From: Escallonia rubra | Lineage: Eukaryota; Streptophyta; Magnoliopsida; Escalloniales; Escalloniaceae | NCBI GenBank assembly: GCA_033065855.1 | Contig: JAVXUO010001891.1 | Location: 62,001-126,000, forward strand | Direction: 5' to 3' | DNA: 64,000 nucleotides | Shown here: positions 4,472 to 63,761 of the stretch, piece after piece | Position numbering within the stretch: position 1 is the stretch's first letter | Layout: the number at the start of each line of letters is the position of its first letter | Translations under genes and position numbers: made by a program | The notes under the pieces: model-generated | The model's database searches: none | What the model saw: the letters and a program-made list of their open reading frames with translations, nothing else | What the model was told of the DNA's origin: nothing

Positions 4472-4474
4472 CTA

Positions 4475-4513
<39 letters not shown>
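4472..4513. repeat. (TA)n microsatellite
   Basis: About 20 TA units directly abut the GGG end of the palindromic element at 4514. Confidence 0.95.
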
Positions 4514-4516
<3 letters not shown>

Positions 4517-4657
4517 AGCTGATCCGTTGCTAGCGCTAGCAGAGCTAGCACCGTCCGCTACATAATGTAGAGGACGGTAAATTATCGTCCCCTACATTAT
4601 GTAGCGGACGGAAAACAGCGCTAGCAACGTGCTAGCGCTAGCAATGGATCATGACCC
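4514..4657. mobile_element. TA-microsatellite-flanked palindromic element, family A short form
   Basis: A 144-bp element lies between two (TA)n tracts. Its ends are GGGAGCTGATCCGTTGCTAGC and a diverged inverse copy ending GGATCATGACCC. The core is an almost perfect palindrome of two CCGTCCGCTACATAATGTAG-type arms around AAATTATC. GCTAGCGCTAGC blocks sit inside both ends. It is non-coding and resembles the copy at 7938-8157. Micron-type elements of rice are known to be flanked by (TA)n, but I cannot say this is the same family. Confidence 0.8.
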
Positions 4658-4680
4658 ATATATATATATATATATATATA

Positions 4681-5549
4681 GGGCCGATCCCCATCGACCG
4701 GTGGGAAAAATCTTATTTTCCCACCGAACCGCTGTAAAAAGCAGCGATTGCATTAAATAAGAAAAACCCAACCGCAACACTTTGTTGCGATTGGGACTTA
4801 TTTCCTCTTTTTGGCCAACCGCAACAAAGTGTTGCGGTTGTTCCTCTACCCCAAAAGTCTACAATTGTGGCTTCTCCCCCCACCCCCCCACCCCCCCACC
4901 CCCCCCCCCCCCACCCCCCCAAAGTCAAAACAGGTGGCTGCCCTTCTTCTTTCCCTTTTTTTTTCTTCCTTTCTTCGTAAGATTTTTCTTTCTTTCCTTT
5001 TTCTTTCTCTCTTCTTTCCTTTTTTTTTTCTTTCTTTCTTCTTTCCCTTTTTTTTCTTTCTTTCTTCTTTCCCTTTTTCTTTCTTTCTTCTTTCCCTTTT
5101 TTTTTTCTTTCTTTCTTCTTTTAGTTGCAGTTTGGGGAGGGTGGGACCCGGAGTGAAAAGAAAATAAAAAAAAAAGGAAAGAAGAAAGAAAGAAAAAAAA
5201 AGGGAAAGAAGAAAGAAAGAAAAAAAAGGAAAGAAGAGAGAAAGAAAAATCTTACGAAGAAAGAAAGAAAAAAAAAGGGAAAGAAGGAGGGCAGCCACCT
5301 TTTTTGACTTTGGGGGGGGGGGGGGGTGGGGGGTGGGGGGGTGGGGGGGGGGGCAGAAGCCACAATTGTGGACTTTTGGGGCAGAGGAACAACCGCAACT
5401 CTTTGTTGCGGTTGGCCAAAAAGAGGAAATAATTCCCAACCGCAACAAAGTGTTGCGGTTGGGTTTTTCTTATTTAATGCAACCGCTGCTCTTTGCAGCG
5501 GTTCGGTGGGAAAATAAGATTTTTCCCACCGGTCGATGGGGATCGGCCC

Positions 5550-5551
<2 letters not shown>
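4681..5551. mobile_element. 871-bp foldback element flanked by (TA)n
   Basis: Nearly the whole element is one inverted repeat with arms of about 420 bp around a centre near 5120-5150. Its ends are GGGCCGATCCCCATCGACC and the inverse. The arms contain consecutive small hairpins: CGGTGGGAAAA/TTTTCCCACCG, AACCGCTG/CAGCG, and CCAACCGCAACA/TGTTGCGGTTGG used twice. Next come G/C homopolymer blocks and CTTT-rich tracts mirrored by AAAG-rich tracts. (TA)n tracts touch both ends. The ORFs across it on both strands are low-complexity products of the palindrome, not genes. Confidence 0.85.

Positions 5552-5613
<62 letters not shown>
5552..5613. repeat. (TA)n microsatellite
   Basis: A TA tract of about 30 units with one C interruption touches the right end of the foldback element. 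Confidence 0.95.
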
Positions 5614-5769
5614 TGTTTCCTTTAGTATTTTTCTCTCATTTTGTCCCAAACATTTGTTTTCATGCTCATATTTAAGTTCATTTTGAGACTTTAATGTACT
5701 TTTTTCATTATCATGACTAAATTGCAGAGTTGGATGGTCAATAATATGTTTTGAAATCTTTCGGAAAAA

Positions 5770-5930
5770 ACGTAATTCATAACCATGGGCAACCCGTGGG
5801 CTCCCGTGTCCACCAAAATTTTAATCGGCTCGGCGTGAACAGATATTAGTAGGCCCGTAGATGAGCTAGGCATGATCTGACACTTGGGCTCGTCCAGCCC
5901 GTCCAGCCCGCCCAAGTTGTACCCCTAAGT
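5770..5930. repeat. Possible hAT-type terminal remnant
   Basis: The stretch ends in GCCCGCCCAAGTTGTACCCCTAA. Its inverse, TTAGGGGTACAACTTGGGCGG, looks like the ends of plant hAT-derived repeats, with GGGC/GCCC-rich subterminal phrases before it. No partner end was found. Confidence 0.35.
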
Positions 5931-6570
5931 GCAGATAGACCAACAACTGGCAATGATTTTATGCTATCTAGAAGTGGGCTTGACCAATATAACTTAAGTA
6001 GCTAATCTGTTATGATTGTGATGGCAGTGTGAGTATGGGAGGGTTATAATAGTTAGAAATGTTCAAACAGAACTATATAATTCGCAAGTATCACACATTT
6101 TTTATTTATCTTGGAAACATTAGATAGATAAAAGTGGTTTATTTGGCCATAAGGGCATCCTTTTCGTTACCTGATGGCTATGGCTTGTAATTTCGCGGTA
6201 TAGCAGGAAGTGTTTTGGTTGCTGAGCTTCTAGGTGTCCCTTACAAGTGCTGTTTTTGCAGTCATTGGTTTAAATATTCAAACAAATAACTTGAAAAGGA
6301 AAAAGCTGAAAAAAGGGAAGAAAATTTTTCAAGACAGCGACTTCCATCCATACTAAAAGAAAGCCTGCTAGCCAGTTCAGAAAGCTATCCCCACTCAAAT
6401 CCTGAATGCATTAGGAGGAAAAATTGCAAACTCCAAACAAGAACATCTAGATTTCAATGGCCACTGAAAAAGTGGATTCTCCGCTAACTTTCAAGTAAAG
6501 CAATGAAATTCAAAATACAACAAGGATATCCAGCAAAGAATGAACAATTATGTCTCAATAGCAAACATAC

Positions 6571-6621
6571 AGTGTCTCTTCCCAGAGCAGCATAATGTTG
6601 TAGACCATTGCATGAACCATC
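6571..6621 (-). CDS. RPOTp: RPOTp exon 10: catalytic motif A micro-exon
   Basis: A 17-codon exon reads [17 protein letters not shown]. It is preceded by an AG acceptor (6623-6622) and followed by the donor GTATGT. It is in phase 0 with exon 9, which ends HLPIHQ|GTAAGT at 10744. The Asp corresponds to the first metal-binding Asp of T7-type polymerases. It is too short to be seen as an ORF and lies 4.1 kb from exon 9, across an intron full of transposon insertions. Its presence shows the gene is not truncated at 10.7 kb. Confidence 0.92.
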
Positions 6622-6947
6622 CTATTAGAACAACAAATTTAAATCATATCAGGAACTACAAAATATGGTTAATGCACTCCATCATATCCCTTGAATCAGA
6701 TTGAAGGTGCCGAAGGCATTAACTCAGATAAAAACAGGTAAACAGGAAAAGTTGGTCAATTAGACAAAGTGGAAGATATCACATCTGAAAACTTCTTTTT
6801 GAGGCCAAATTTATGGATGGTAAAAGTCGTCATTAAAATCATCTAAGCCTTTGGCCCCAAACTAATTCAGGTCGGCTACATGTATATTTTTCTTCCATTC
6901 CCCAATCCAATGTCTTTCAATCAATTCCTACCAATCAAGTATTTTCT

Positions 6948-6979
<32 letters not shown>

Positions 6980-8155
6980 TCATTTCCTCCCCGTGTTATC
7001 CTTGGTCTACTCTACCCTTACCTAGGCTTACCCCGTCAACTTGGCACATAATACGAATTCTTGCAGGGGCATCTAAATTCCAAAGGCCTAATTGGATATG
7101 ACGAAAACATCTCTAGCGACATACCCTCATCTTATCCTCTTTTGGCGCCACCCCCGTATTGTTCCGGATATCCTCATTTCTTGTTCTATACCTCCTCCTA
7201 TGAACGCACATGGATTTAGCATTCGTACTTCTGCAACACTCATCTTATGTATGGTGATTCGAAGATGCCTAGCATTCTGAACCATACAACATTGCAAGCC
7301 TCAGTGCCATCCTAAAAGACTTTCCCTTCAACTTGAGAAGCAGACCTCCACTTTAACCAACCTGCTCTTATCCTGTGGGCAACATCCCCCACAATTCCTT
7401 TATTGATCCAAGCTACCAAAAGATATCTTTCTTAGGTACTTATGGCTCATCCATACTACCTTCTTGTACCTCCTCCTAGTGTTACCAAAACTGCAATCTA
7501 ATGACTATCTTAGTGTCATCAACTACAAATTACGTCATCCCAAAATAACATACACTGTGTGATCTCATCATGAATTTTCTTTGTAACCTGATCCAAAACC
7601 AAAGTAAAAAAACATGGGCTTAAAGCTGATGCTTGGTGAGGTCCAATCCTAATTGGAGGAACCTCACCAGTCATGCCAAGTTGCTCTGTCTTAGGTATCC
7701 TCGAGTATATGGATTGACTTGGCAGACACTCCTTTTTCACCACATAACCAGAAGTACAAAGGAAAGCAAGACCATAAAGGCCCAGGGTAGCAAAGGGGAT
7801 TCTAGGCGATGACAATTTAATCACTTAAATATTGCCCGGGCCCACCAAAGACCATGCTACTGCCACGTTACAAAACTCATGAACAAATACCCAAAAAAAA
7901 AAAAATATTAATAAATAAATAAATATATATATATATAGGGAGCTGATAAAATGATAGCGCTAGCAACTTAACCCAAGTTGCGCGCGATCTGGCCGTCCAC
8001 ATGAGAGAATAGACGGCCAGATCGCGCGCCACAACAGCGAATGTTTTCACCGTCCGCTACATAATGTAGCGGACGGTAAATTATCGTCCACTACATTATG
8101 TAGCGGACGGCCAAACAGCGCTAGCAACTTGCTAGCGCTATCAACGGATCAGCTC

Positions 8156-8195
<40 letters not shown>

Positions 8196-9350
8196 AATAG
8201 CGAATATGTTGCTAGCCTTAGGCAGCTTGCCTAAGGCTAATCTTGAAACTACGCCGTTTTTGAGTTAAGAAATCTAGTTTTTATTTTCTTTTCTCTTTCC
8301 CTTCATCCTGTTGATTGAGACTCACTCAGTCTCACACAGAATCTTCGCCAATCGTCAGCCAACCTCCATCGCCGGTGACCTCACAATCTACTGGACCACC
8401 AACCATCAGAAACCATGGCCACCACATGGGAACCCACGACTGCTAGTGCTACATCATGAAACCGCTACAAGATTGAGCATCAAATCAGAACTTTTCCATC
8501 ATTAAGCCGCTATAAAAACTAAACATCATATTCATTCATCTTCAACTGGGAAACGGTTTTCTCTATAAAAGATTTGGTACAGTCACCTCCGTCTTCTGCC
8601 GGCTCCATTGCCGGTGACATAACACCGCTACCGCAGACCACCAATTTGAGAAATTCACCGTTGATTAAAATCTATATATTCTCAATTCAACAAATCCAAT
8701 CAAAACTAATGAATTCGTTTTTTGTATCAAATCAGTGAAGGTTTGTATATTATGGCGGTGGTTTGTGATGATGGATGTGGTCGGAGATCTGCAGCAGCGA
8801 TGGGTGATAAGTCATCGGCGAAGGAAGCTGGCCACGATGGAGGGCGATAAACAGGCAAGCTGGTGGTCACTAATTCTGTGATGTGGCGGGGGGAAAGAGC
8901 AAATGCACTCTGGGTTTGTGCATGGTGCGGTGGGGCGGAAATTTGTGGTGGGCGACTGTGTGGACACTGGAAAAGGGCTGGCGTTGGTGATTTTTGCGGT
9001 GAACGACGGGGTGGAGGCTGACGGCCGGTGATGAGCAACGACCAGCGATGAGCAACGACCAGCGATGATGCCCTATGTGGTCTGATATGAGAGAAAGAGA
9101 GAGAGAGAGATTGGCCGGCGATGGTGGGGGATGGTTTGCTGGTGCAGAGGTTGGGTTGGCCGGTGACAGTGGCCGGTAACGAGGCGGTCTGGGCGCGCAG
9201 ATCTGATAACGTGTGAGAGAGAGAGAGAGTTACCGGGATAGAGAAAACATAGAAATGATAGAATTAGTAAACTCTGCAAAATAAGACAAATGTAGTTTTA
9301 GTCGTTAGCCTTAGGCAACTTGCCTAAGGCTAGCAACATATTCGCTTTCC

Positions 9351-9390
<40 letters not shown>

Positions 9391-12300
9391 TCAGCATATG
9401 GAAACTCCTATTAGCCCGAAAAAAAGGTTCACTAAAGAATAAATGAATGCGATCTATTGGCAGCTCAACTACATAGAAGCTATATATACCCCCCTTTAAG
9501 GCACAATGGTGCCACCTCCGCCCTGCACCCCCTACCCCTGATGCCCTCACGTCCACCACCCCCCCCCCTCCGCCGCGGGGGGCCCCCAAGGCAGTTGCAA
9601 GCCAGATACTGGACCCAGAGCGAGCCAAGCAGAGAAAACCACAAGCTGCAGCACACGATGAAAAAAAGATTGATCAATCAACTCCCCAGTTTGGTCTGCT
9701 CCTCCTTGGGACTGTAAGTAGTCAAAAGACAACTGAAAAGGAATTTTATATTTGTTTACTGCAATTTGTACAAGTTGTAGACCGTAAAGTTCTTTGTTCA
9801 TGCTATTAAAGGAGCTGAGAGAGACCGATCAAGGAAATAATTTCTTGCGTTTCTGAAACCCAACGCATATGCCATTGCTGCATTGCAGAAGTTATTGCCA
9901 TATAAGTTAAATACTTGATTGGTGGCATATTTTAATGCATTAATAAAAGGTAAAGCATCTAACTTTTTTCAAGCCGGGGAAGTGGAGACCTATGCTATAG
10001 ACAGCACGATTTAAAATATGACATAGGAAGTGCGAATAATACTGTTGAGTCACCACTTGCTCTAAAAGCTTTGGCTGTGAAAAACGGCTCGACATATACC
10101 ATGTTTAACACTCCCTCTCTTGAGAGCGCTAATTGCACGTGGAGAGACAAACCTAAGGTGCTCTTCTGAGCACAAATAACAAGATAAAGTGCTTAATAGG
10201 GAGCAAACACAGGGCACCCAATGCAAGCCGGGAAACTCTACCCTAAGACCTTGCCAGGTAGAGAGAGAGAGAGAGGTTGGCGAAAATGATAGACATACTT
10301 AATGTCTATAAGTGGATGGTTGCTGAATCAGTGTTGGTACTTTTTTGGGATGGGGGCCTTCTAAGCAGCGAAAATAAACTTGGGAGTATCCCACGTGAAT
10401 TAAAGGTACACAGCTGGTGGGTACTTCTTTCCTCAGTTATACACTAGAAAAGTATGGACGCAAAGGTCGAAGCTAATAGGCTCAAGACTCCAGAGATTAA
10501 GATCTGCAGAAAGTTTCACTCGGTTGAAGAATTTGGTTCCGTGACATAATTTAGCTCTCCAAAAAAACCTTTTTCGCTAAATAGAACACCCTCAAAAAAC
10601 TCATATGATTTAGTTTGAATAAGCTTGTACAGAAGCAATAAATAATCCTACTAAAAAGAGTAACCTTAGAGAACCACATGGTATTTTCACCTTACATAAC
10701 CTGTTACACTGTTATTGTCACCGGGCACCTGAGAACTACTTACCTGATGAATTGGCAAGTGGGAGATGACGGTATGCGGTGACGAGCTCTTTAAGGCTTC
10801 TGCCAAATTTATACAAGCAGCTAAGCACTGAAAAGGATCCTCAGCCATTAGCCACCATCGATCGCCACTAAGTGGGTTGTCTGCTGAATCCAGTATATCA
10901 TCCAGATGGTTATCCACAAATGCTAGGCGGCCATCATAAGAAAGCTTTTCAACACCACCCGCGTATAGGTTTGCCAAGTGTATCTTCAGCCAAGATAGCC
11001 CCGACTTCCCGAGTGGTCGTCCTTCGGCAAACTCTAGAATTCCTCGGCAAAGATCAGAGCTTAGGTGATTCAAATGTGGATGCATAGGATAAGCACGGCC
11101 TCGAAAGTCAAGATTGTGAGGATAGTAGAAGCCGTCCTCATCTTTCATTCTCCGAGCCACCTGTTTAAACTGGCCTCTTCAGTATTCACTCCTATATAGC
11201 TTTTAGTATATATACAGAAGTACAAGCATTTGTCCCAGATAGCTCTAGCGAGATTCATTAAAATTCAACAAGTTGTGTAATGAACTTGTATCACGAAGAT
11301 TGCCCCCAAGAATTGCTTGATAAAGCGGACCCCTACCAGTCATTCCATCTACCAAGAAACACAGTGAATTGCAAGACAATTCTGAACTCTTATTACTATC
11401 TAGAGGAATGTATAATTAAGACATGAAGTGGCATCACGACCGGACTAACTTCATGTCAGAACTCTTCTGACAAGTGGATATATCCTGGTGGGCCAGCAAA
11501 GTTCTCAATGTTGTATTATACACAATAAGAACTTCGTAATACAAGAGCAAGGAGTAGTCCAGTGACATAAAGCTGTCCTACCCCCACTTGAGGAAGTTTA
11601 AACTCTCATCAGCCGTATGGCGTCACCCTTCCCCGCTTCCCTCTTACAAGTATGCTAGATGTTATCGAGTGGAAAATATAAAAAATACATAATGCTCTCG
11701 AGAAAATGTTTACCGAAAGTTTAAGTTCGATGTCGCACCGCTGAGAATGTCTCTCTTGGTTAATTTTCTTCGCTTTCCTCACACTCCATCTCCATTTCTT
11801 TATTTCTTTCAAGTCCTCAGAGTGTAACTCAGGTATGGGAACCTACATGCCAACGAAGAATGACCTTTACGCAAAAAAACTACATAAGCTGCATGTCAAC
11901 AAGAGAATCAAGGTAATAAGAAGAGCATCTCAACAAGAAGATTTTCATTGCTGCATCTTTATATCTTTAAGTCCTGAAACCTCATGAGTGTAACATGCGG
12001 GTGTTGTTACACTAATATTTCTTCTATTGTAAAAAATTGTCAGGATTTATAGTAAAAAAGGATTACATATACAAACAATAGTACTTTGTCAGTGGGACAG
12101 GGCATTCAGAGCACTCACATCTACACGATCAACAAGGCCAGCAATGTTCCCTCCTCCAGACCAAATCCTCTCCACCACACTTAGTACTCTTCGGTTCACT
12201 CTCCATTTGGTGTGTCCTAGAGTATTCAAAGCCTGCTCATTGTAGTCCAAACTTTATTATAGCTGAAATCTAAAGCCACATCCTAGCAATGACACGAGTT

Positions 12301-18300: not shown

Positions 18301-20994
18301 ATAAACGTGTTATTGATCATCTTTTCGCAATGCTTTTGCTCATTAGAAAAGCAAATCTAGCAAAGCATAACATTCGATTGCTGTAGAGTTTCTCCTTTAC
18401 ACCTATTCCCTCTCCCCTGCCCCCACCCCACCCCCCACCCCAACCCCCGTCGCAGCCCCTTTGAATTTCAAATTCAAATGCACAAGCCACCTTAAGTCTA
18501 ATTCATAGTTTAGTACAGGTGGGGTTTAATGAGTCAGCATAGCGTCCCATGACAAAGTTACCTCCCTACCTCCTCTCTAAGTTATACTTCACTAACGCCC
18601 CACTCTTACTCACATCACACCACTAGTGGTACCAAACCTGGCATGGAAGCGTTTTATGAGTCAGTGTACTGCTAAAAGAAGTTGTCTTCCCTTCCTCGCT
18701 GCCTCTGTAGCTCAGAGTCCACACTTAGCCATCATCAAGTCCCGCCTATTGCAACTACCATGAGAAAAACCCACAGCAGACCACAAATGGTAAGCAAAAT
18801 CCAGCATGAGTTGGTGAGTCTGTTTACCATGACAATGTAGCCCTCCTCTCTGCCTCTCGATGTTAATTTCCCTTCCCATACCTCATCTAAGCCCACATCT
18901 TAGCACTACCACCACCAAAACGATAAACCCACCTCACACCGCCATTACTGAACTTAAGAGGGTCTTTAGCATAGGATATAAGATGTAACACAAAGAGATA
19001 ACCTGTGTGAGAATAATAAAAAAGAGATAGGAGAGGGGAACGGGGGAGAGAAAGGACGATGCCAGATGTGTTTTCAATACACAAGGTGTCTTCACTAAGA
19101 AGATATATTGCATGTATGCATTCATGAAAATGGGTTCGATTATTGAGGGTAGGTTCGCGTAATATAAATTTCTCGGCCTCGTCACCAAAAGCATTCCTCC
19201 TCATAATGACTTTTGACGGATGAGACTTAATTGAGATGATACTATGAAAGTTGGTTTTGCGCCATCCTTGTGCAAGTCTTCTCTAATACATCTCCCTCTC
19301 ATTTTATCAAGAAAATTTTGCAAACCATCTGTTTGCAGTCCATCGAACGACCAGTCACTCAAGTAAATGCACCAAACAATGCATTGGAGAAACTTTGTAT
19401 GCTTATAAATAGAGATCTTTACCTTATGTGGTCATGAGAAGGGACATTGGTGGTTTAACTTCTGTGTAAGCAGAGTTCCAATGGAGAGGATGTAAAAAAT
19501 GTTTAGGCAAGAATGCATCATATACAATATTAGGCCCCTTCTCTACCAGATTAGGCTCTGTATCGTAGCTTAACATGGTACAAGATATCTGTGTGGCAAG
19601 GTCTTGGTTGGAATTCCTCCCAGTACTTTTTATATCAGCACAATTTGAATTACATTTGTTTGTGCACTTTGCTGTAGTGCACCTTAAATTCTTCCTCATT
19701 AATCCATCACTCCATATGCAATAAGGGGGCTTGCACATAGGGGGAATGCTTAGTACAATCTACATTGTTAGCCCATTCTTACAAGAAAATTTTCTAAGCA
19801 TGTCTTGTCTAAAAATAGTCATCCACATGGCATTGTGAAAATGCCATCTGATACCTTAGTCATATTATATTTTTTAAGTCTGAGAAGGGAGAGGCAACTA
19901 ATAGCTCAAACGGTCGCCTAAGTTCTAAACAAGAACTCCTAGCGCTTTCTTATAATTCCTTTCGATGCACTAGAATTCATCTAAACTATGTCCTAAAATT
20001 TCAAACAAGACAACATAATTCTGAACTATCACATTATCTAACAGGAAATTGGGCATGCATCTCACAATTGTACATTTCCTCTCTATAGACACCAAAATTA
20101 CCTGGATAATAATTCGAGTTTCATCAACCAAACTAGTAATTTCTCTCTGTATAAGCTAACTACAAGCATACAAGTATCAAGACTGACCTCCTGCTCAATC
20201 GCTACACCAATCTGAACCGCAGCCTGAACCACCCTGACATACCGATCCTCCTGCCCCATCATCAACAGCCCCATCATCTTGTGCATGACGATAACAGCCA
20301 TCTTATCAGCGGGCAAACAATCAATGTGGGGCGCGTACGCCGCCTTCTGCTTCTTCGTCCGCTGCGTCTTCTGCTCCTTCGCGATAGCCTCCCTCAATGG
20401 CTCAAACCAACCTAGGAACAGCTTCTTCACGTAAGGCAAATTGGGTGCCAACTTCTTCTCACACATCTCTCTCTCCAACTCCCGGTACTCATCGGTCATC
20501 TTCTCCCACGCCTCCGTCTCCGCCTTAATCTGCCTCCTCCTCAACAAATAATAATTTCGCCTCTCAATCTCTTTGAATTCTGTTTTCACCCTCTGCTGAT
20601 TCCTCCTATACACATTCCTCACAAATAGCGAAGTTATCCAAGTTGGCTCTTGTATAAACACTTTCCGGGTAGACTCTGTTTGCCCAATTTGACAAAACCC
20701 ATTTGGGAGTTTCTCTGAATTGACCACATTTGCCAAATCTTGGAGGCTTTCAGTGAAATTTTCGTCTGTTGAATCTGGCAAAGGATGTAAGTAAACTGAA
20801 ATGGAATTGTTTAAAGAGGGCAACTTGAGGTTGTAAGGGAAAGGACACGAGGAAAGTGGTGCGCTTTGTGAGAAACTGTGAAAGTTGGAGGTGTGAATGA
20901 AGAGGAAGCTACGGTTTGGTTTGAAATTCTTGGACTTCCATGAGGGGTGGAGATGGGCTTTGGGCCTTGGAGAGAAGGGAGCTGAAGAAGCCAG
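6571..20994 (-). CDS. RPOTp: Phage-type organellar RNA polymerase, probably plastid RPOTp (10 exons; 3' part outside window)
   Basis: Single-subunit T7-like RNA polymerase encoded in the nucleus. The RPOTp member transcribes plastid genes. I read ten minus-strand exons with GT/AG borders and consistent phase: 20188-20994, 18096-18296, 17858-17991, 17491-17560, 17066-17124, 16676-16793, 12119-12232, 11714-11842, 10744-11160 and 6571-6621, about 700 codons in all. Family landmarks in order are a basic N-terminal region, [19 protein letters not shown]...[60 protein letters not shown] split as read, [11 protein letters not shown], and [16 protein letters not shown], which carries the first catalytic Asp. 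The family is usually near 1,000 residues, so the K-R region and the HDSYW catalytic Asp are missing. No exon for them is visible in 1-6570, so the gene probably continues left of the window. Plastid rather than mitochondrial assignment rests on the transit-like N terminus, the CTG start and the neighbouring LRR kinase. No in-frame stop occurs in the exons. Confidence 0.93.
6845..7830 (-). pseudogene. LINE (non-LTR retrotransposon) 3' remnant
   Basis: On the minus strand, 7519-7700 encodes an RT tail resembling [20 protein letters not shown] then ...[14 protein letters not shown], a degraded form of the plant LINE motif with FADD. 7090-7330 gives scraps of the C-terminal RNxxIR...MRxxxLRW(F)GH block. 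The 3' tail at about 6845-6880 (CGGCTACATG, CTAATTC) is typical of these elements. Frameshifts and stops throughout. It lies within RPOTp intron 9. Confidence 0.75.
7938..8157. mobile_element. TA-microsatellite-flanked palindromic element, family A long form
   Basis: 220 bp. The ends GGGAGCTGATAAAATGATAGC and the inverse of GGGAGCTGATCCGTTGATAGC are flanked by (TA)n on both sides. It shares with 4514-4657 the double CCGTCCGCTACATAATGTAG core and the GCTAGCGCTAGC blocks. It also carries an extra hairpin module (7980-8032) with a near-perfect stem, GCGCGATCTGGCCGTC against GACGGCCAGATCGCGC. Confidence 0.82.
8158..8192. repeat. (TA)n microsatellite shared by two elements
   Basis: A single TA tract of about 17 units is the only DNA separating the element ending at 8157 from the one starting at 8193. 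Confidence 0.95.
8193..9352. mobile_element. 1.16-kb TA-microsatellite-flanked element with ~47-bp TIRs
   Basis: The left end GGGAATAGCGAATATGTTGC and the right end (inverse GGGGAAAGCGAATATGTTGC) continue into matching AGCCTTAGGCA...TGCCTAAGGCT sequence, itself a hairpin. So each terminus is an inverted repeat containing a palindrome. (TA)n tracts lie on both sides. The interior is GC-richer, with GAGAGA tracts and short ORFs on both strands. No transposase domain is recognised, so it is non-autonomous and possibly holds captured host sequence. Confidence 0.8.
9353..9387. repeat. (TA)n microsatellite
   Basis: The TA tract abuts the CCCC end of the preceding element. Confidence 0.95.
9388..10743. 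other. Remainder of RPOTp intron 9, no gene seen
   Basis: Contains a GC-rich patch (9480-9640, C and G runs) and a GA microsatellite (10260-10274). Short overlapping ORFs on both strands at 9311-9801 show no recognisable domain and look spurious. Confidence 0.4.
12560..13840 (+). pseudogene. LINE reverse transcriptase remnant
   Basis: Plus-strand scraps follow the order of a plant [26 protein letters not shown] and [14 protein letters not shown] come first (12588-12725). Then come [11 protein letters not shown]-like, RLMK, AYDKVP-like, MYDGATTS-like and DEVPWCM-like pieces. [15 protein letters not shown]-like and [10 protein letters not shown]-like pieces, VRRSD-like and [14 protein letters not shown]-like end pieces follow to about 13800. 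Multiple frameshifts and stops. Opposite orientation to RPOTp, inside its 4.4-kb intron between exons 6 and 7. Confidence 0.8.
13845..14835. mobile_element. Probable hAT-like non-autonomous element
   Basis: The left end TATGGGTGGCAAAAAGG and the right end TTGCCACCACTA are inverse-related, in the style of plant hAT ends (TAGGGTGGCAA). The flanks GTGATGCT and ACGATGAT match at 5 of 8 positions, so a target duplication is only suggestive. TTCATC repeats occur inside. Confidence 0.5.
14740..14965. repeat. Direct duplication of hAT-like subterminal sequence
   Basis: The block GGATTTGGGTAGCTTTTAAG...GGCGGATTCCGGACG...ATGGATTTGGGTT (about 14763-14830) recurs diverged at about 14890-14960 (GATTTGGATCGCTTTTAAGG, GGCGGATTTCGGACGA). 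A GATGATGAT run lies between. This could be a second, partial element end. Confidence 0.6.
14966..16675. other. RPOTp intron 6, remaining part, no gene seen
   Basis: Moderately AT-rich, with no domain-bearing ORF or terminal repeat recognised. Confidence 0.4.
18297..20187 (-). other. RPOTp intron 1 (1.9 kb)
   Basis: Intron with donor GTCAGT and acceptor TTATTTAG. It holds a C-rich patch (18418-18450) and three loosely similar stretches near 18520, 18650 and 18810 (ATGAGTCAG-like then CCTCNCTGCCTCTC-like), suggesting an old tandem repeat. ORFs at 18887-19204 and 19424-19738 show no known domain. Confidence 0.6.
20188..20994 (-). CDS. RPOTp: RPOTp exon 1 with probable CTG start and plastid transit peptide
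   Basis: This exon is open for 269 codons and ends GAG|GTCAGT. In its frame a TAA (21009-21007) lies 15 bases before a CTG at 20994-20992, and there is no in-frame ATG until well inside the conserved part. The CTG has A at -3 and G at +4. Read from it the protein begins [11 protein letters not shown], Ser/Pro/basic-rich and poor in acidic residues, as expected of a chloroplast transit peptide. Known: CUG initiation was reported for plastid RPOT of Nicotiana sylvestris. Upstream ATGs (for example about 21144 and 21111) lie in another frame, and that frame ends at about 20811, overlapping this exon. Alternatives are a one-base assembly error joining the ATG frame to this one, or an unseen 5' intron. 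Confidence 0.8.
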
Positions 20995-40561: not shown

Positions 40562-40697
40562 TCCGTTTCTTCTTATAGCGGTACAGTGGTGCGCTTCTTT
40601 GTGCTAATCCATTCTCCCTCCCTCTCTTTCTCTCTTTCTATCTCTCTCTTGGTGTCTTTCTTTGAATTTTGGCTCTTCCAAGAAGATCATCTGGATC
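40562..40697 (+). promoter_or_regulatory. Probable 5' UTR / core promoter region of the LRR kinase
   Basis: Just upstream of the start ATG is a pyrimidine-rich tract (about 40605-40660, CTCCC and CTCTCT runs), typical of plant 5' UTRs. There is no clear TATA box. A TTATAG at about 40574 is only a weak candidate. The transcription start cannot be placed from sequence alone. Confidence 0.35.
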
Positions 40698-43600
40698 ATG
40701 ATAATGGGTACTTGTAAGTTCTTCAAGTTTAACATTCTTTTCTTAGCAATGGCGGTTTTCTTTGCGGTACTTGCACAAGCAAAAGCGGAAAATATGAACG
40801 ATCAAGCTTCACTTGTATCGTTCATGTCTGGGGTCGTTTCTGACCCCCGACATGCTCTCGAGAGTTGGAGCATTTCGCATGCTCATGCATGCAATTGGTC
40901 CGGAGTTTCTTGCAACAGAAAGAATAGAGTGGTTCAGCTTGTACTTAGCGGCACTTCTCTTCGTGGCATCATTTCGCCGTCTATAGCCAATCTTTCTTAC
41001 TTGAGGATTCTTGATTTGTCAGGGAATTTCTTCCAAGGTCACATTCCATCCGAGCTAGGCTCTCTTTTCCGGCTCAAACAGCTCAGTTTATCGACAAATC
41101 TACTTGAAGGAAGGATTCCAACCGAGTTAGCATCTCTTAGAGAGTTGGTGTATCTTGATTTGGGAAGTAACCGGCTCAATGGTGAAATCCCAGTGCCACT
41201 TTTTTGCAGTGGATCTTCTTCTTTGGAGTATATAGACCTTTCCAACAATTCTCTGACTGGCAGGATCCCTTTGAAGCACCAATGTGCGCTTAAGGAGCTT
41301 AGGTTTCTATTGCTTTGGTCGAACAAACTTGTGGGCGAAGTTCCGCGTGGCCTTTCAAACTCCTCAAAGCTCCAATGGCTTGACTTGGAATTAAATTTGT
41401 TAAGTGGGGAATTGCCTTCTGAGATTGTGAGCAAAATGCCACGGTTACAATACCTCTACTTGTCCTATAATCACTTCTCAAGCCATAAAGGTAACACTGA
41501 CCTCGAACCCTTTTTTTCTTCTCTAGTAAATTCCTCTAACTTGCAAGAACTTGAATTGTCCGGAAATAGTCTTGGTGGAGGGATACCTTCTATTATTGGT
41601 GATCTTTCTACTAGTCTTGTACAAATTCAGCTCGATGACAATCACATTAGTGGCTCAATTCCTCCAAGCATTTCAAGCCTTGTCAACCTCACCCTTCTAA
41701 ATTTGTCCAGTAACTTCTTGAATGGGTCAATTCCACATGAACTCTATCGTATGGGAAAATTAGAGCGGCTTTACATATCGGATAATTCTCTCTCCGGTGA
41801 GATTCCGTCGGCTTTCTTACACGTTTCTCATTTAGGTCTTCTTGATTTATCAAAAAACCAACTCTCGGGGTCCATCCCAGATAGTTTTTCAGATCTTCCT
41901 CAGCTAAGAAGACTTCTGCTTTATGAGAACAACCTCTCAGGAACCATACCACCAAGTCTTGGAGATTGCATCAACTTAGAGATTCTTGACCTTTCTCACA
42001 ATAAAATTTCAGGGTTGATTCCACAAGAAGTGGCAGGATTGAGTAGTTTGAAGTTGTACTTGAACTTGTCTAGCAATCACTTACAAGGACCCATACCACT
42101 AGAGCTGAGTAAAATGGACATGGTGCTGGCAATTGATCTTTCATCAAACAATCTCTCTGGCACAATTCCTTCACAGTTAGGTAGCTGCATTGCTCTAGAG
42201 TACCTTAATCTGTCGCATAACATCTTAAGAGGCCCTCTTCCTCTGTCAATGGGTCAGCTACCTTACCTCAGAGAACTTGATGTGTCCTTGAACCAATTAA
42301 ATGGAGAGATACCTCAATCTCTACATTCATCATCAAGTCTGAAGAAACTTAATCTCTCTTTTAACAACTTCTCTGGGAATGTCTCAAACGAAGGTGCATT
42401 TTCCTCACTTTCCCTAGACTCTTTCTTGGGCAATGTAGGTCTATGTGGCTCCATCCAAGGCATGCGAGCCTGTGGGAAGAAAAGAGCTTCCCATTCCATA
42501 ATCTTGCCGATTCTTGCTTCCTTAGTTGCCAGTCTCATTTTGTTGATAGTTGCGTTACCTTTGGTGTTAAAGTCAAAATTCAGAAGGCGGGTGGGAATTT
42601 TTAACCATGGCATCATAGAAGATGAAGAGAAAGAAACTAAGGACCTCAAGTACTACCCGAAAATAAGTTATCAGCAACTCATTGAAGCCACGGGTGGATT
42701 TAGCAGTACGAGCCTCATTGGATCAGGTCGATTTGGTCGTGTCTACAAGGGAATTCTCACAAACAACACAAGTATAGCTGTGAAAGTAATAGACTCGAAA
42801 ATAGGTGGAGAAATATCTAAGAGCTTTGAAAGGGAATGCGAAGTTCTAAAAAGGACCCGCCACAGGAATTTGATACGAATCATGACTATATGCAGTAGGC
42901 CAGATTTTAAGGCACTTGTTCTTCCGTTAATGCCAAATGGGAGTCTTGAGACACATTTGTACCCGAGCCACGGGCTGAGCCTTGGGTTGGACTTGTTTCA
43001 GCTGGTGAGAATTGGCAGTGATGTAGCTGAAGGGCTGGCTTATCTGCATCATAATTGTCCTGTTAAAGTTGTGCACTGTGATCTTAAGCCAAGCAATATT
43101 CTCCTTGATGATGACATGACAGCTTTGGTGACTGATTTTGGTATTGCAAAGTTGGTAAAAGGGGAGGATAAAGATGTTTCTGCTCATAGTTCAGTTTCCT
43201 TTAGCTCTGCAGATGACTTGCTTTGCGGAACAGTTGGTTACATTGCTCCTGGTACGTACTGATCGGTCACTTGTTAATAATATGATTTTGGGGCACGACT
43301 CGGACTTAACTAGCTGTTGCATAATCATGTTTTTTTTTGAACTCTCAGCATAACATGGTGAGCAATTAAGAGTGCTGCACACTTTGCACAACAGAATACA
43401 CTCTTATGAGGTCAAAAATGAGATCTCATCGTATACATTTACAACATTTTACAACATAGCTCGTCTGACTCCCTCTAACTCCTGTCTTTTCCTTGACCCA
43501 ATGCAGAATACGGTATGGGGAGGCAAGCTTCAACACAAGGAGATGTTTACAGTTTTGGGATTCTGTTGTTAGAAATTGTGACCGGAAAACGTCCCACAGA

Positions 43601-43901
43601 CGTCCTTTCAAGTGAAAGTTCAAGCTTGCATGAATGGGTTAAGATTCATTACCCTTACAAGCTCGAGCCAATCGTTAACGAAGCACTTGTCAGGTACGAG
43701 CCGCGAACTCCCCTGGGATGTCATAGCAAGAGATGGCATGATGTGATCTTGGAGTTGATCGAACTTGGCCTGATTTGCACACAGTACAGTCCTTCAACTA
43801 GACCAACTATGCTGGATATAGCTCATGAAATGGCTCGGTTGAAGGAGTATCTTGCTGGTCCTTTCACTGAGGAAGCTTCAACTAAAGTTGGGATTATCTG
43901 A
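40698..43901 (+). CDS. LRR receptor-like serine/threonine kinase, non-RD type (At2g24130-like), two exons
   Basis: Plasma-membrane receptor kinase, intact over 982 codons. Exon 1 is 40698-43251 and exon 2 is 43507-43901. They are joined inside the activation-segment region (GYIAP|EYGMG), with intron GTACGT...TGCAG. Residues 1-30 form a hydrophobic signal peptide. LRRNT with the CNWSGVSC motif spans about 35-72. Some twenty extracellular LRRs of the IPxxLGxLxxLxxLxLSxNxLxG type follow. The transmembrane helix is about 601-624. The kinase has GSGRFGRVYKG (675-685), Lys696, HCD (793-795) with Lys797, and DFG at 813. Cys in place of Arg before the catalytic Asp makes it a non-RD kinase, a class rich in immune receptors (subfamily XII). 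The C terminus matches At2g24130 as I remember it, including GLICTQYSPSTRPTMLD. Two close in-frame ATGs exist (40698, 40704), and the second has the better context. Ligand unknown. Confidence 0.95.
43252..43506 (+). other. Intron of the LRR receptor kinase
   Basis: 255-bp intron bounded by G|GTACGT and AATGCAG|AA. It interrupts the Glu codon of the conserved APEYG segment in the kinase C-lobe. Joining the exons keeps the frame. No transposon signature is seen in it. Confidence 0.9.
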
Positions 43902-50029: not shown

Positions 50030-51303
50030 TGGCCAGAGAGAAACGTGCTCGCACTAGTTCATCCTGATCACGAGCCGCACCTGCACCCGCGCCCGAGCCC
50101 GTGCCTATCGCGGTAGAGTTTGACCGCAACCGCTATCGAAACCGTGAGGCTCTAGACCATTTCTCCCCTCAAAACTCTTCTCCTCTGGCTCCAGGTTTGC
50201 GTTTAGACACTCCATTTCTATCTAGCATAGGTGTACTTAGAAACCTTCAGGATTGCTATCTTGATCGTCTTACTGATAGGAACACCATCCTATATTATCC
50301 TGATGCAATTCGTCTTTTTATGCAAATCTGACTTGGAGCATTTCCACTGAGTCGTGTACACTCACTTCATATGTCTTTGGTCGGCGTCTCTCATTCTCTC
50401 AGTCACGACTAGCCGATCTTCTAGGCCTCCCCGACACTGGTTTTTCATTTTCCCTAGAGATGATTCCTGTCGCCGGTAAATCACATTGGTTTGACCGACC
50501 TTTCTCCATCGAGGACCAGCTTCAACACACACTTCACAGTCGACAGATTAGGGCTGCACATAAGCCCACCCTTAGTGACCTACCACCTCTGTCTCGACTA
50601 TTCCATCATGTCATCGGTCACAACGTCATCCCTAGAGCCGGGGGTCTTTCATTTGTTTCTTACATATACGTTCAGCTCTTGGCCTTTTTCCTCTCAGGTA
50701 CACCGCTTAACCTCTCTCGTCTTATCATGTTGAACATGATTAGGAGCGCTTCTCATCCTGGCTTAGCTATACCTTACGGCCTCCTACTCACTCGCATTTT
50801 TGCTGCCTTTGACATTCCTCTTCCCTGTGAGTATATTGAGGTGACTCGACACAATGTACTCGACTGCTTTACCCTTCGTAGGAAGAAACTTTTAGATGAT
50901 CGCAGTCGTTTCTTGCCTGAGCCCAACATGGACACTGCTATGGCGGATGATGATGATGAGGATGCGGATGATGATGAGGATGAGGCTGATGGTGATGATG
51001 ATGAGGATGATGCTGCTGATGCTGATAGAGATGCCGGCGACGGGATTGATCGTGATCCACCTCCGTTGATCATTCCGAGTACACATGAGGCGAACACTTC
51101 TTCCGGTCCTTCTGCTTTAGGATATGAAGTGATCCTCGCACGCTTAGATATGATGCAGTAGCATATGCATGCCGGTTTTAGTCGGATGGATCTCGCCCAT
51201 AGCCAGCTCAGTCGACGCCTCTCTCGCATGGTGGATCATCGTGGGATTCAGTGTCCCGAGGAGGACATCTTTCATCCACCACCTCCACCATCGGGTCCTT
51301 GAG
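50030..51303 (+). pseudogene. Plant transposon-protein-like ORF (PF20167-like) in the nested LTR element
   Basis: ATG at about 50030 opens a basic start (MAREKRARTSSS) that meets a TGA after 12 codons. The same frame resumes to 50331, and a one-base frameshift near there moves it to the frame of 50460-51161. Family-like features are a YVFGRRLSFSQSRLADLLGL segment, HVIGHNVIPRAGGLSFVSYI, GTPLNLSRLIMLNMIRSA and IPYGLLLTRIFAAF, matching the layout of the 'putative plant transposon protein' domain found in many non-autonomous LTR elements. The C-terminal part is an Asp/Glu run from GATGAN repeats (50940-51040). Function unknown. Confidence 0.65.
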
Positions 51304-60216: not shown

Positions 60217-61640
60217 GGGATAATATCTTATATCCCTCAGTTTATGGGTAAATTACGGTCGAGGACACAAGTTAGTATTTATATCACTTATATCCGTTGA
60301 CCAGACAGAATACTAATGGTGTTAAAATTTTGTGTTAAATGACATGATTGCCCCTCAAGACTCTCTTCATCCATCAGCATCAACCTCTCTCCTTTCTTTC
60401 TTTCTTTTCTCCTTTCTCTTCTTCCCCTTCTCATACTCTCCAACACCCCCGCCCCCACACCACAGAACACACATTCACACAACACACACAGACACACACC
60501 CACACCCATAAAATTTGACATTAAACCCCAATTAGGCATCCACACAACCCCATTAATTAGCGATACCGGAGCTTCTCCATCTTGTGGCGGCACTGCGCGG
60601 AGGTCTTCACCCCCGGGCAGCAAATACCCACAGTGGCGGCCAGAGTGTCCTAGTCGGTCGTGCGGAGGTAGCCACGGCAGAGCTCGTACCACCTCTCGTT
60701 GTAGGCCTCGATCAGGGACAACGCTTCCTCCTACGTCCCACACGATGGCAGAAACTTCTGCGGCGGCTTGTCCGGCGTCGCGACCATCTGGGGGTCGTGG
60801 TGGGTGATCGACAATTTCGGAGAAGCGCATGTTAGCAGGAACTGTAAAAACTCAGCCACAACTGCAGTGACGGTGAGCGATGGTCTTATTGGCCCGTGCA
60901 TCGGCCGGTGGCGATGAGGATTAGGAGGCATACGTTCACGTTAGCGGATCCAGAGTCGCGGGTCAGCAGAAATAGTAGAAACCATCTTGGTGGTGGTGGA
61001 CGGTGCCCATAGTAACTGGGCCTAATTTATGGGTGGTTACTATGGACGTTGCCTACAGTAACTGGGCCTAAATTATGGGTGATGGAAAAATAAGGGGTGA
61101 GGCTTCTCTTACAATGTCCAACAAGGCGATGGAGGGTCTAATCAAGAGATAATCTAGGTGGTAGCACCATAATTTGTTGTGGTAAAAACTAGTGGTAATT
61201 AAGTAATGTGAAAAGGGGAGTTGAATTGTATATGAATTGGTTGTGGCAAAGTGGTGGAGGTGGGTGGTGCTGGTGGAGATTAATGATGGAGTGGGCGGTG
61301 CTTTGAGTGTATTGGTGAATCTGTGTGCAACTATGATGTTGGGGTGGGATTTTTGGGACAAAGTGACTAGGTTGTGAAGTGTTTTTGGTTGGTAATGCTA
61401 GGTGGTCCAGTGGTTGTGAGAGAGGATAGAGGAAATGGGAAGAAGGAGAGGGTAGTATTGCCATTTTTAAAGTACGGTATTGCCACATCAGCAAAAATCA
61501 TTAGTTAGGTTCACAGAATCCTAACGGTGGGCATATCTGATACAAAATTTTCATATTTCGGATAAGATTGCAAATTTTTGAAACTTACGTCTTTGACTAT
61601 AATTTACCCTTAAACTGAGGGATATAAGTGATATTATCCC
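60217..61640. mobile_element. Mutator-like element with captured gene fragment (Pack-MULE-like)
   Basis: The ends GGGATAATATCTTATATCCC and (inverse right) GGGATAATATCACTTATATC continue together through CCTCAGTTTA and GGGTAAATTA. A perfect 9-bp duplication TATCTTTAA flanks it (60208-60216, 61641-61649). Duplication unit 1 shows the empty site. No transposase is seen. The interior is GC-richer and holds a trihelix-type gene fragment. Confidence 0.92.
60557..60800 (-). pseudogene. Captured trihelix-type transcription factor fragment
   Basis: In one minus-strand frame: TPDKPPQKFLPS, then EEALSLIEAYNERWYEL, then DTLAATVG, then CPGVKTSAQCRHKMEKLRYR and a stop. This is the SANT/trihelix layout (helix with Trp, spacer, QCRHKxEKLRKRYR helix) of plant GT-type factors. 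Two in-frame TAGs (60731-60733, 60650-60652) sit where Trp codons would be expected, as from TGG to TAG changes. It lies wholly inside the Mutator-like element. It is a fragment, not a gene in use as far as sequence shows. Confidence 0.7.
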
Positions 61641-61936: not shown

Positions 61937-63761
61937 CTACTCTGTCACCGGTGCTGGCCACTCACAGACTCTGTCATACCTCGTGTACCCAAATGCGGTC
62001 GTCACACTCCATGGGCCACGATACCCACACGACGGCTCCAAGTCATAGCCAAATGTCCGCGACAACTGGTTCGGACAATACCGGGCCACAAAATACAGGT
62101 TCTCCGCAGGCTTCCCGCCATCATCAGTCATTACTGGCAGCCTACCTAGAAAATAGGCCACCAAGAGCACAACGTCCGCCGGTGGCAAGCCCCCCATCCT
62201 GGTCAAGTTTATCACCATCTCCTGTCTGTGCAACCAGGGGGGTACTCCATATGATGCATGCATATCTTTGTACGGTCGTGCCAAGCATGCCTCCCTCGAG
62301 TCTATTAGCCATGACAGCGGACAATCCGGCCTCTTGATGCCCGAACATGCAAACGCCCGTGACCCCTTGCACCACAGCGCCACCTCTCGTGATCTGCCCC
62401 CATGCATCACCATCCTCATCCTCGATAATGCATGCTCGAGCGGGTATCCTGCCGGACGATAATCCGGAAAACACTCGTTCAAGTACCGCTGCAGGAACAT
62501 CCAATCCACATACGTCGCCACCTGGTACCGCCCATACGACCGCTTCACGTCATTCACAAACTAGTCCAGCCGTGAATATAGGGTGCCCAGATACATGGGA
62601 GCTAGCCCAACACGCTTCCCTTGCGCCATCCGAATCACCAGGGGAATCATTTCGGGGAAATGCCATCCTCCGGCGTCCCCTCAAACATGAATCTGCAAAC
62701 ACACAACAACGCATTATACACAGCCTCAAATAACATCACATGTGCAAGCATACAAACAATGGAACGCACAATGTTTACCTCGACAAGAACATCGTCAAGA
62801 AGGCCACCATCTCGGACCGCTCGTCCTTGTGATACGGCCCAATCACGAAGTGGACAGCATTGCCTAATCTCTGCCCCGACCTCACCTGTGGCGTACCATA
62901 GAACAATCGGAGCCACCCACTGTATGTCGCCTTCCGGTGCTGCCTCATCTCCGAAAAAATGTCGAGTAGCTGCGTCTGCAAAAGCCGCTCCTCACCAGTA
63001 AGCCGCGTCACACGCGCATCCAACTCTCCATGCATCGGTAGCCCCGTTAGCATTATCACATCCAGTAGCGTCGGCCCAATCTCTCCAAACTCAATCACAA
63101 AGGTATGCGTCCGAGTGCTCCACCTCGACAGCAGCAGGGTCATCCCATGTGTATCTCTATACAACTCCAGCCCCCTCCCCGTAATGTCAACCGCCAGCAT
63201 CAATCCCAACGTCTGCAATAGCACCGCCCACCTCGGTGTCTCCACCGTATGCTCACACCAGAAGTACCACCCAATTGGCATCGCACCATGGCCCTTGAAC
63301 ACCGCATGTGCCCGGGTTATATCCTCCCGCTCCACCAACAACCCCGCAATATACCTCGGTGACGGCACATATGCCTTCTCCCAGCTCAGAGCCCGCACAT
63401 ACGGTGACGGCACTCGTGGCTCCTCGCCCATCGACACACCATTCCAAGGCACCGTGAACGAACCATCAGCTACCCGGATGGCCAGATCCCTCCACAACTC
63501 CCGGTCAGGCACGGCCGGTACTACCCATTTTACTCCCAGCGGCGTGTTCGTCTTATCCGGGTCTGGATCATATGTTCTCACCAACGAATCATCAAAAGTA
63601 ATAGTCACTCTCGTCTCACCACCCACCGTAGCTTTGGCCTCATCTGTCGGTGGGAACGACACCGGTTCCGTCGTCACAATCTGCGGTGGCCGCGCTGCGC
63701 TCGTCGCCTCACCTCGTGGCTTCGCCCACATCTTCTGCTTCAACTTTTTCAGAACGGGCAC
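61937..63761 (-). pseudogene. Plant mobile domain (PMD, aminotransferase-like) gene, broken
   Basis: PMD proteins are plant-specific, occur in MULE and gypsy elements and in the host MAIL genes, and have no settled biochemical role. Exon A (62779-63761, possibly longer to the right) encodes the diagnostic stretch WSTRTHTFVIEFGEIGPTLL followed by DVIMLTGLPMHGE, and later SGWLRLFYGTPQVRSG. An 86-bp intron (62693-62778, GTAAAC...TTTGCAG) joins in frame to RFMFEGTPEDG. Downstream, one base is missing near 62660 and an in-frame TAG occurs near 62562. After that the frame is open to a stop at 61937 (SYGRYQVATYVDWMFLQRYL..., VINLTRMGG...). The intact exon A and broken exon B suggest recent decay. 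A true ATG was not settled, since the open frame extends upstream of 63761. Confidence 0.8.

Follow-up and report, generated by a model that had tools for sequence, protein, structure and literature searches.

The 64,000-nucleotide stretch of Escallonia rubra DNA analyzed here (contig JAVXUO010001891.1, positions 62,001 to 126,000 of the forward strand; hereafter, the window) appears to be plant nuclear DNA. Near its left end, four elements with inverted ends, designated E1 to E4, lie in TA microsatellites within and next to an intron of an RNA polymerase gene. The elements and their flanks, with the strand where one was assigned, are the following.

4476-4513 (38 bp): (TA)19 tract, left flank of E1
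4514-4657 (144 bp), plus strand: E1, family A foldback, GGG...CCC
4658-4680 (23 bp): TA tract, sole spacer between E1 and E2
4681-5551 (871 bp): E2, family B, near-perfect foldback with a C-tract and CT-rich arms
5552-5613: TA tract, right flank of E2, made up of 5552-5594 (43 bp) and 5596-5613 (18 bp) with a single C between them
7923-7937 (15 bp): TA tract, left flank of E3, preceded by AAATAAATAA
7938-8157 (220 bp), plus strand: E3, family A foldback
8158-8192 (35 bp): TA tract, sole spacer between E3 and E4
8193-9352 (1160 bp): E4, family C, with a hairpin inside each terminal repeat
9353-9386 (34 bp): (AT)17 tract, right flank of E4

An earlier note on this DNA had described four elements that start with GGG, end with CCC, and have TA on both sides. 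Its coordinates proved exact: GGG or CCC lay directly against (TA)n at all eight borders, and the 12 bases adjoining each border were pure alternating TA. Outside the cluster, GGG and CCC start at only ~0.9% and ~1.2% of positions, respectively, and eight such borders out of eight are therefore not a product of chance. The elements form stacked, non-nested arrays, in which a single microsatellite tract is the only spacer between E1 and E2 (23 bp) and between E3 and E4 (35 bp), as the same note had recognized.

Seven TA tracts of at least 10 bp were found in the 64-kb window. Six of them touch an element, the seventh (5596-5613) is one C off, and none lies outside the cluster. At a threshold of 8 bp, the count rose to 15, and the eight tracts not in the cluster set were all exactly 8 bp long. 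Among 100 simulated first-order Markov sequences of 64 kb each, none contained a TA tract of at least 15 bp, the longest simulated tract being 11 bp.

In all four elements, the base before GGG and the base after CCC are both A. An even-length target duplication in alternating TA leaves unlike bases at the two borders, and an odd-length one leaves like bases; the same base on both sides in pure (TA)n therefore points to a target duplication of odd length. Since slippage moves by whole TA units, that is, by two bases, this phase would be preserved, so that pure TA tracts hide a duplication but show its parity. For the 8- to 11-bp duplications of Mutator elements, the odd phase excludes the even lengths, the length itself being unreadable in pure (TA)n. 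Thus, the phase speaks against duplications of 2, 8, and 10 bp and fits the 9 bp of MuTAnT, a family from Medicago truncatula that is compared below. That the shared border base on this strand was A rather than T in all four cases (1 in 8) carries no special weight.

The elements fall into three apparent families. E1 and E3 belong to one (family A): they share a palindromic 63-nucleotide block that is 97% alike, and E3 has an extra hairpin. The whole-sequence alignment of the two (115 of 144 bases) placed the left end of E1 poorly, and the 63-nucleotide block was used instead. Within the window, E1 and E3 are the only two copies of one family. Terminal inverted repeats, measured without gaps at a match of at least 80%, extend over 28 bp in E1, 333 bp in E2, 32 bp in E3, and 56 bp in E4. 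The terminal repeats of E4 are 48 to 56 bp long, and each contains a 27-nucleotide hairpin, computed with RNA parameters. The count of terminal guanines is unequal between the two ends of E2 (3 on the left and 5 on the right) and of E4 (3 and 4).

E1 and E3 fold back along their whole length, with DNA fold z values of -13.2 and -16.5, respectively (200 shuffles each). The z value of E2, whose halves align at 371 of 413 bases, was -63.0, from 20 shuffles only. The description of all four elements as rich in nested hairpins thus holds over the full length of E1, E2, and E3, whereas E4 has one strong hairpin per end, its folding having covered only the ends. Between positions 4876 and 5353, the long arms of E2 are rich in C and in CT on one side and, as their mirror image, in G and in GA on the other; they are likely to be prone to unusual DNA structures and difficult assembly. 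The longest stop-free frame of E4 spans 178 codons. No Pfam family was found in the 6 frames scanned out of 14 stop-free frames of at least 40 codons in E4, and a captured gene piece inside this element is unsupported by these frames.

Two of the three families have a terminal word in common: GTTGCTAGC occupies positions 13-21 of the left end of E1 and positions 16-24 of both ends of E4. A word that long shared by E1 and E4 within positions 4-30 arose in 13 of 2000 joint permutations (0.0065), three such comparisons between families having been made. When 3000 random 27-mers were drawn from the window, 15 shared a word of at least 9 bases with the ends of family A. The previous view that the elements are unrelated apart from the first and third was therefore right about the kinship of E1 and E3 and too strict about E4.

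A separate element of 1424 bp was found at 60217-61640, near the other end of the window. It has inverted ends (GGGATAATATC...CCC) and an exact 9-bp duplication, TATCTTTAA. This is probably an ordinary non-autonomous Mutator-like element (MULE), and it suggests that the genome holds elements that combine GGG...CCC ends with a 9-bp duplication. No match was seen between its ends and the ends of families A, B, and C. Close to it, a minus-strand frame at 62778-63761 encodes a Plant mobile domain (PF10536, E 4e-14). Elsewhere, a plus-strand frame at 50460-51158 weakly matches Transposase_32 (PF20167, E 4e-8), under the curated cut-off.

On the minus strand, the window contains parts of a gene for an RNA polymerase of the phage type, which we take to be RpoT. 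The Pfam domain RPOL_N was detected in the minus-strand frame 20101-20823 and RNA_pol (PF00940) in the minus-strand frame 10687-11157, and an exhaustive RpoT motif search of the window returned four places. Two exon features bear on the position of the elements.

10744-11160, minus strand: RpoT-like exon region with RNA_pol (PF00940); only the edge at 10744 is mapped
6571-6621, minus strand: RpoT-like exon of 51 nucleotides, with AG before it and GT after it, located with an RpoT probe

The first of these finishes at 10744 with LPIHQ, followed by GTAAGT, and the second matched the RpoT probe at 16 of 16 residues (E 5e-6). Between them lies a GT-AG intron at 6622-10743 (4122 bp) that contains E3 and E4. 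E1 and E2 are located beyond the 51-nucleotide exon. No later RpoT exons were found in the window with the probes used; the rest of the probe matched three weak places (E 0.12, 1.1, and 4.2), which we took as chance. The probable location of E1 and E2 is the following intron of the RpoT-like gene, the far end of which was not seen within the window. The claim that all four elements occupy the introns of one gene thus stands for E3 and E4 and is probable for E1 and E2. A leucine-rich-repeat receptor-like kinase gene is located on the plus strand at 40662-43901, with a Pfam kinase domain in frame 43515-43898 and the leucine-rich-repeat part assigned by eye.

Taken with what has been published on other plants, these observations lead us to conclude that E1 to E4 are very probably non-autonomous, MULE-type foldbacks, mobilized in trans, that entered TA sequence by odd-length insertion, followed by tract growth and stacking. 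The transposase would come from another place in the genome, recognize the GGG-led terminal repeats, and excise the element. A staggered cut of odd length, most likely 9 bp, at a TA-rich site would then lead to insertion with ATATATATA on both sides, and the TA flanks would grow through repair or replication slippage. A longer TA flank would offer a bigger target to the next element to arrive, so that unrelated elements would come to be stacked with a TA tract as their sole spacer. We favor this reading because all eight borders join GGG or CCC to TA and all four phases are odd, and because an element with GGG...CCC ends and an exact 9-bp duplication is present at 60217-61640. The other reasons come from known systems, for which we draw on passages of the published accounts.

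One of the closest parallels is MuTAnT, with 218 copies in M. truncatula, 90% of which are 200 to 300 bp long. These are foldbacks with GGGG/CCCC ends that vary from zero to four guanines; 204 of the 218 copies lie in perfect (TA)n, and 9-nucleotide duplications were indicated at the other 14 (PMC4486113). E1 to E4 are likewise foldbacks in (TA)n with GGG-type ends of varying guanine number, a variation that E2 and E4 show between their own two ends. The 9-nucleotide duplications at impure MuTAnT sites agree with the odd phase of E1 to E4, and some MuTAnT copies also occur in introns or untranslated regions. The published MuTAnT end, GGGGTTTGCTAGAACA, has TTGCTAG in common with E1 and E4, which, together with the word shared between E1 and E4 themselves, also speaks for our reading; a word of at least 7 bases shared with any of the eight ends arose in 146 of 5000 shuffles, TTGCTAG having been noticed first and tested afterwards. 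As a whole, the 16-base published end, the only part compared, matches no end of E1 to E4 at up to 4 mismatches; three 4-mismatch matches to it occur in the window outside the cluster. A further difference is that MuTAnT includes a coding relative that bears a mudrA-like gene (PMC4486113), whereas none was seen here in the frames scanned.

Stacked, never nested arrays of MULE-type elements have also been published, which is another reason for our reading. SaTar elements of guayule, rice, sorghum, and citrus are unrelated non-autonomous MULEs stacked with microsatellite spacers, often TA; in the passages considered, none interrupted another in >300 guayule clusters, and 32% of the elements in a 1% sample of guayule were linked to another (PMC5907723). 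E1 to E4 resemble them as arrays of unrelated elements joined by microsatellite without nesting, a likeness of description, although E1 (144 bp) and E3 (220 bp) fall below SaTar sizes. Target duplications of guayule SaTars measure 10 bp, and those of citrus families 9 or 10 bp (PMC5907723). Unlike the odd phase seen here, the 10 bp of guayule would give an even phase.

Micron of rice, which is the same as rSaTar2, consists of small elements in (TA)n (Akagi 2001, cited via PMC5907723 and PMC12550479), and its ends have been tied to an autonomous rice Mu-like element (PMC5907723). It too is similar to E1 to E4 as described. The mMITEs of pineapple also lie in (TA)n, are clustered by adjacent insertion (46.1% of full-length elements are in clusters), and are derived from Mutator according to their authors. 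Outside TA they show 9- or 10-bp duplications, no autonomous relative having been found in that species, and their ends are mostly GA...TC, unlike those of E1 to E4 (PMC8449440). The MiMs of carrot are miniature inverted-repeat transposable elements (MITEs) in (TA)n for which a Mutator drive was left open by the authors in the passages used (PMC8227079). A survey of 207 plant genomes placed Micron-type MITEs chiefly in Poaceae and Rosaceae. TED and Jittery of maize produce 9-bp duplications; the passages on them add nothing on TA targeting (PMC9569675).

The idea of a shared machinery that targets TA repeats, with which the earlier note had explained the cluster, is accordingly supported in part: it is the best reading, and the phenomenon is already known as MuTAnT, SaTar, Micron, or microsatellite MITEs. 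The note had also found four elements within 5 kb striking. This appears less so given how common stacking is in guayule and pineapple. The alternative that the elements amplify TA tracts need not compete with targeting. Empty sites of MuTAnT average nine TA repeats as opposed to ~15 per flank at occupied sites amplified by polymerase chain reaction (PMC4486113), and the same trend is quoted for maize (PMC5907723); targeting of TA repeats and growth of TA tracts may therefore both be true.

Several results weigh against our reading. The phase comes from four elements, all of which would be odd by random phase 1 time in 16, and duplications of 3, 5, 7, or 11 bp agree with it equally well. E2 has no terminal word in common with family A or C (permutation values of 0.80 and 0.83, respectively). 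The 9-bp duplication scan, which omitted two-letter duplications and had no null, returned four rows, of which 60217-61640 was the sole convincing one; the others were one internal palindrome of E1/E3 and two rows at one AT-rich, chance-like place at ~1872-2091. With up to 25% mismatch allowed, exhaustive searches of the window outside the cluster found no copy of the family A, B, or C ends. The list of open frames of at least 110 amino acids has 28 entries, of which 10 were scanned with Pfam; no MULE family was detected among these 10, and no mudrA-like transposase in them or in 6 of the 14 E4 frames. In guayule, 10-bp duplications occur in members of 11 of 15 families, and many flanks disagree with cut and paste; to account for them, the authors propose recombination of circles (PMC5907723).

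Two internal palindromes likewise had no copy in the window outside the cluster by exhaustive search. Beyond the window, an 18-base word from the E4 end matched two bacterial contigs among genome contigs totaling 257 billion bases, with ~7 matches expected by chance, and a 20-base E1/E3 word had 0 matches in viral contigs.

Among the alternatives, the guayule model fares best. Here, a circular copy whose ends are joined through microsatellite filler would recombine homologously into an existing TA tract. The model, published as speculative by its authors, would account for stacking without nesting (PMC5907723), and the TA tracts touch E1 to E4 exactly, as it would have them. On its own, however, it does not require an odd phase, which random filler would give in four of four elements 1 time in 16, and MuTAnT copies outside pure TA show 9-nucleotide duplications (PMC4486113). 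We regard it as an unlikely account of this locus.

Another cut-and-paste superfamily with TA-rich targets, be it Tc1/mariner (Stowaway), PIF/Harbinger (Tourist), hAT, or CACTA, is less probable still, even though Stowaway and Tourist MITEs are typically short, have inverted ends, and use TA-rich targets. The 2-bp TA duplication of Tc1/mariner or the 8-bp duplication of hAT would leave unlike border bases, whereas like bases were seen in all four elements. The TTA/TAA duplication of PIF/Harbinger is absent from pure (TA)n, and the borders are pure alternating TA. CACTA ends read CACTA, whereas all eight ends here read GGG.

It is scarcely credible that the TA tracts belong to the elements and travel along, or that each pair is one compound element (the earlier note had itself considered tracts internal to one larger element): the same tract type does adjoin every element and one tract is common to both members of each pair, but the inverted-repeat match stops at GGG/CCC, where the outer base is A on the left and T when read inward from the right end, the pair of inverted termini is separate for every element and stops right where the tract starts, the outer flanks of E1+E2 and E3+E4 show no duplication by eye, and empty MuTAnT sites keep a TA tract without an element (PMC4486113).

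Within the Mutator-type interpretation, we tentatively raise one further possibility, which we consider doubtful. A single Mutator-type transposase might read GGG plus a subterminal hairpin (with TTGCTAG in two families) and so move several unrelated foldback families, each 9-bp insertion seeding or lengthening a TA tract, such that arrays would build their own landing sites. The lack of any TA tract of >8 bp in the 59 kb outside the cluster would agree with tracts that insertion creates, as opposed to tracts that elements simply encounter.

As to mechanism, the odd phase in all four elements makes us lean to cut and paste with tract growth over circle recombination. A genome-wide test of phase could tell cut and paste with 9-bp duplications apart from 10-bp insertion and from circle recombination, a question left open by the guayule authors in the passages used (PMC5907723). 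The phenomenon itself has already been named and characterized: E1 to E4 look like additions to a known Mutator-type class of plant transposons that insert into TA microsatellites, a class to which E. rubra would add the three apparent families A, B, and C.

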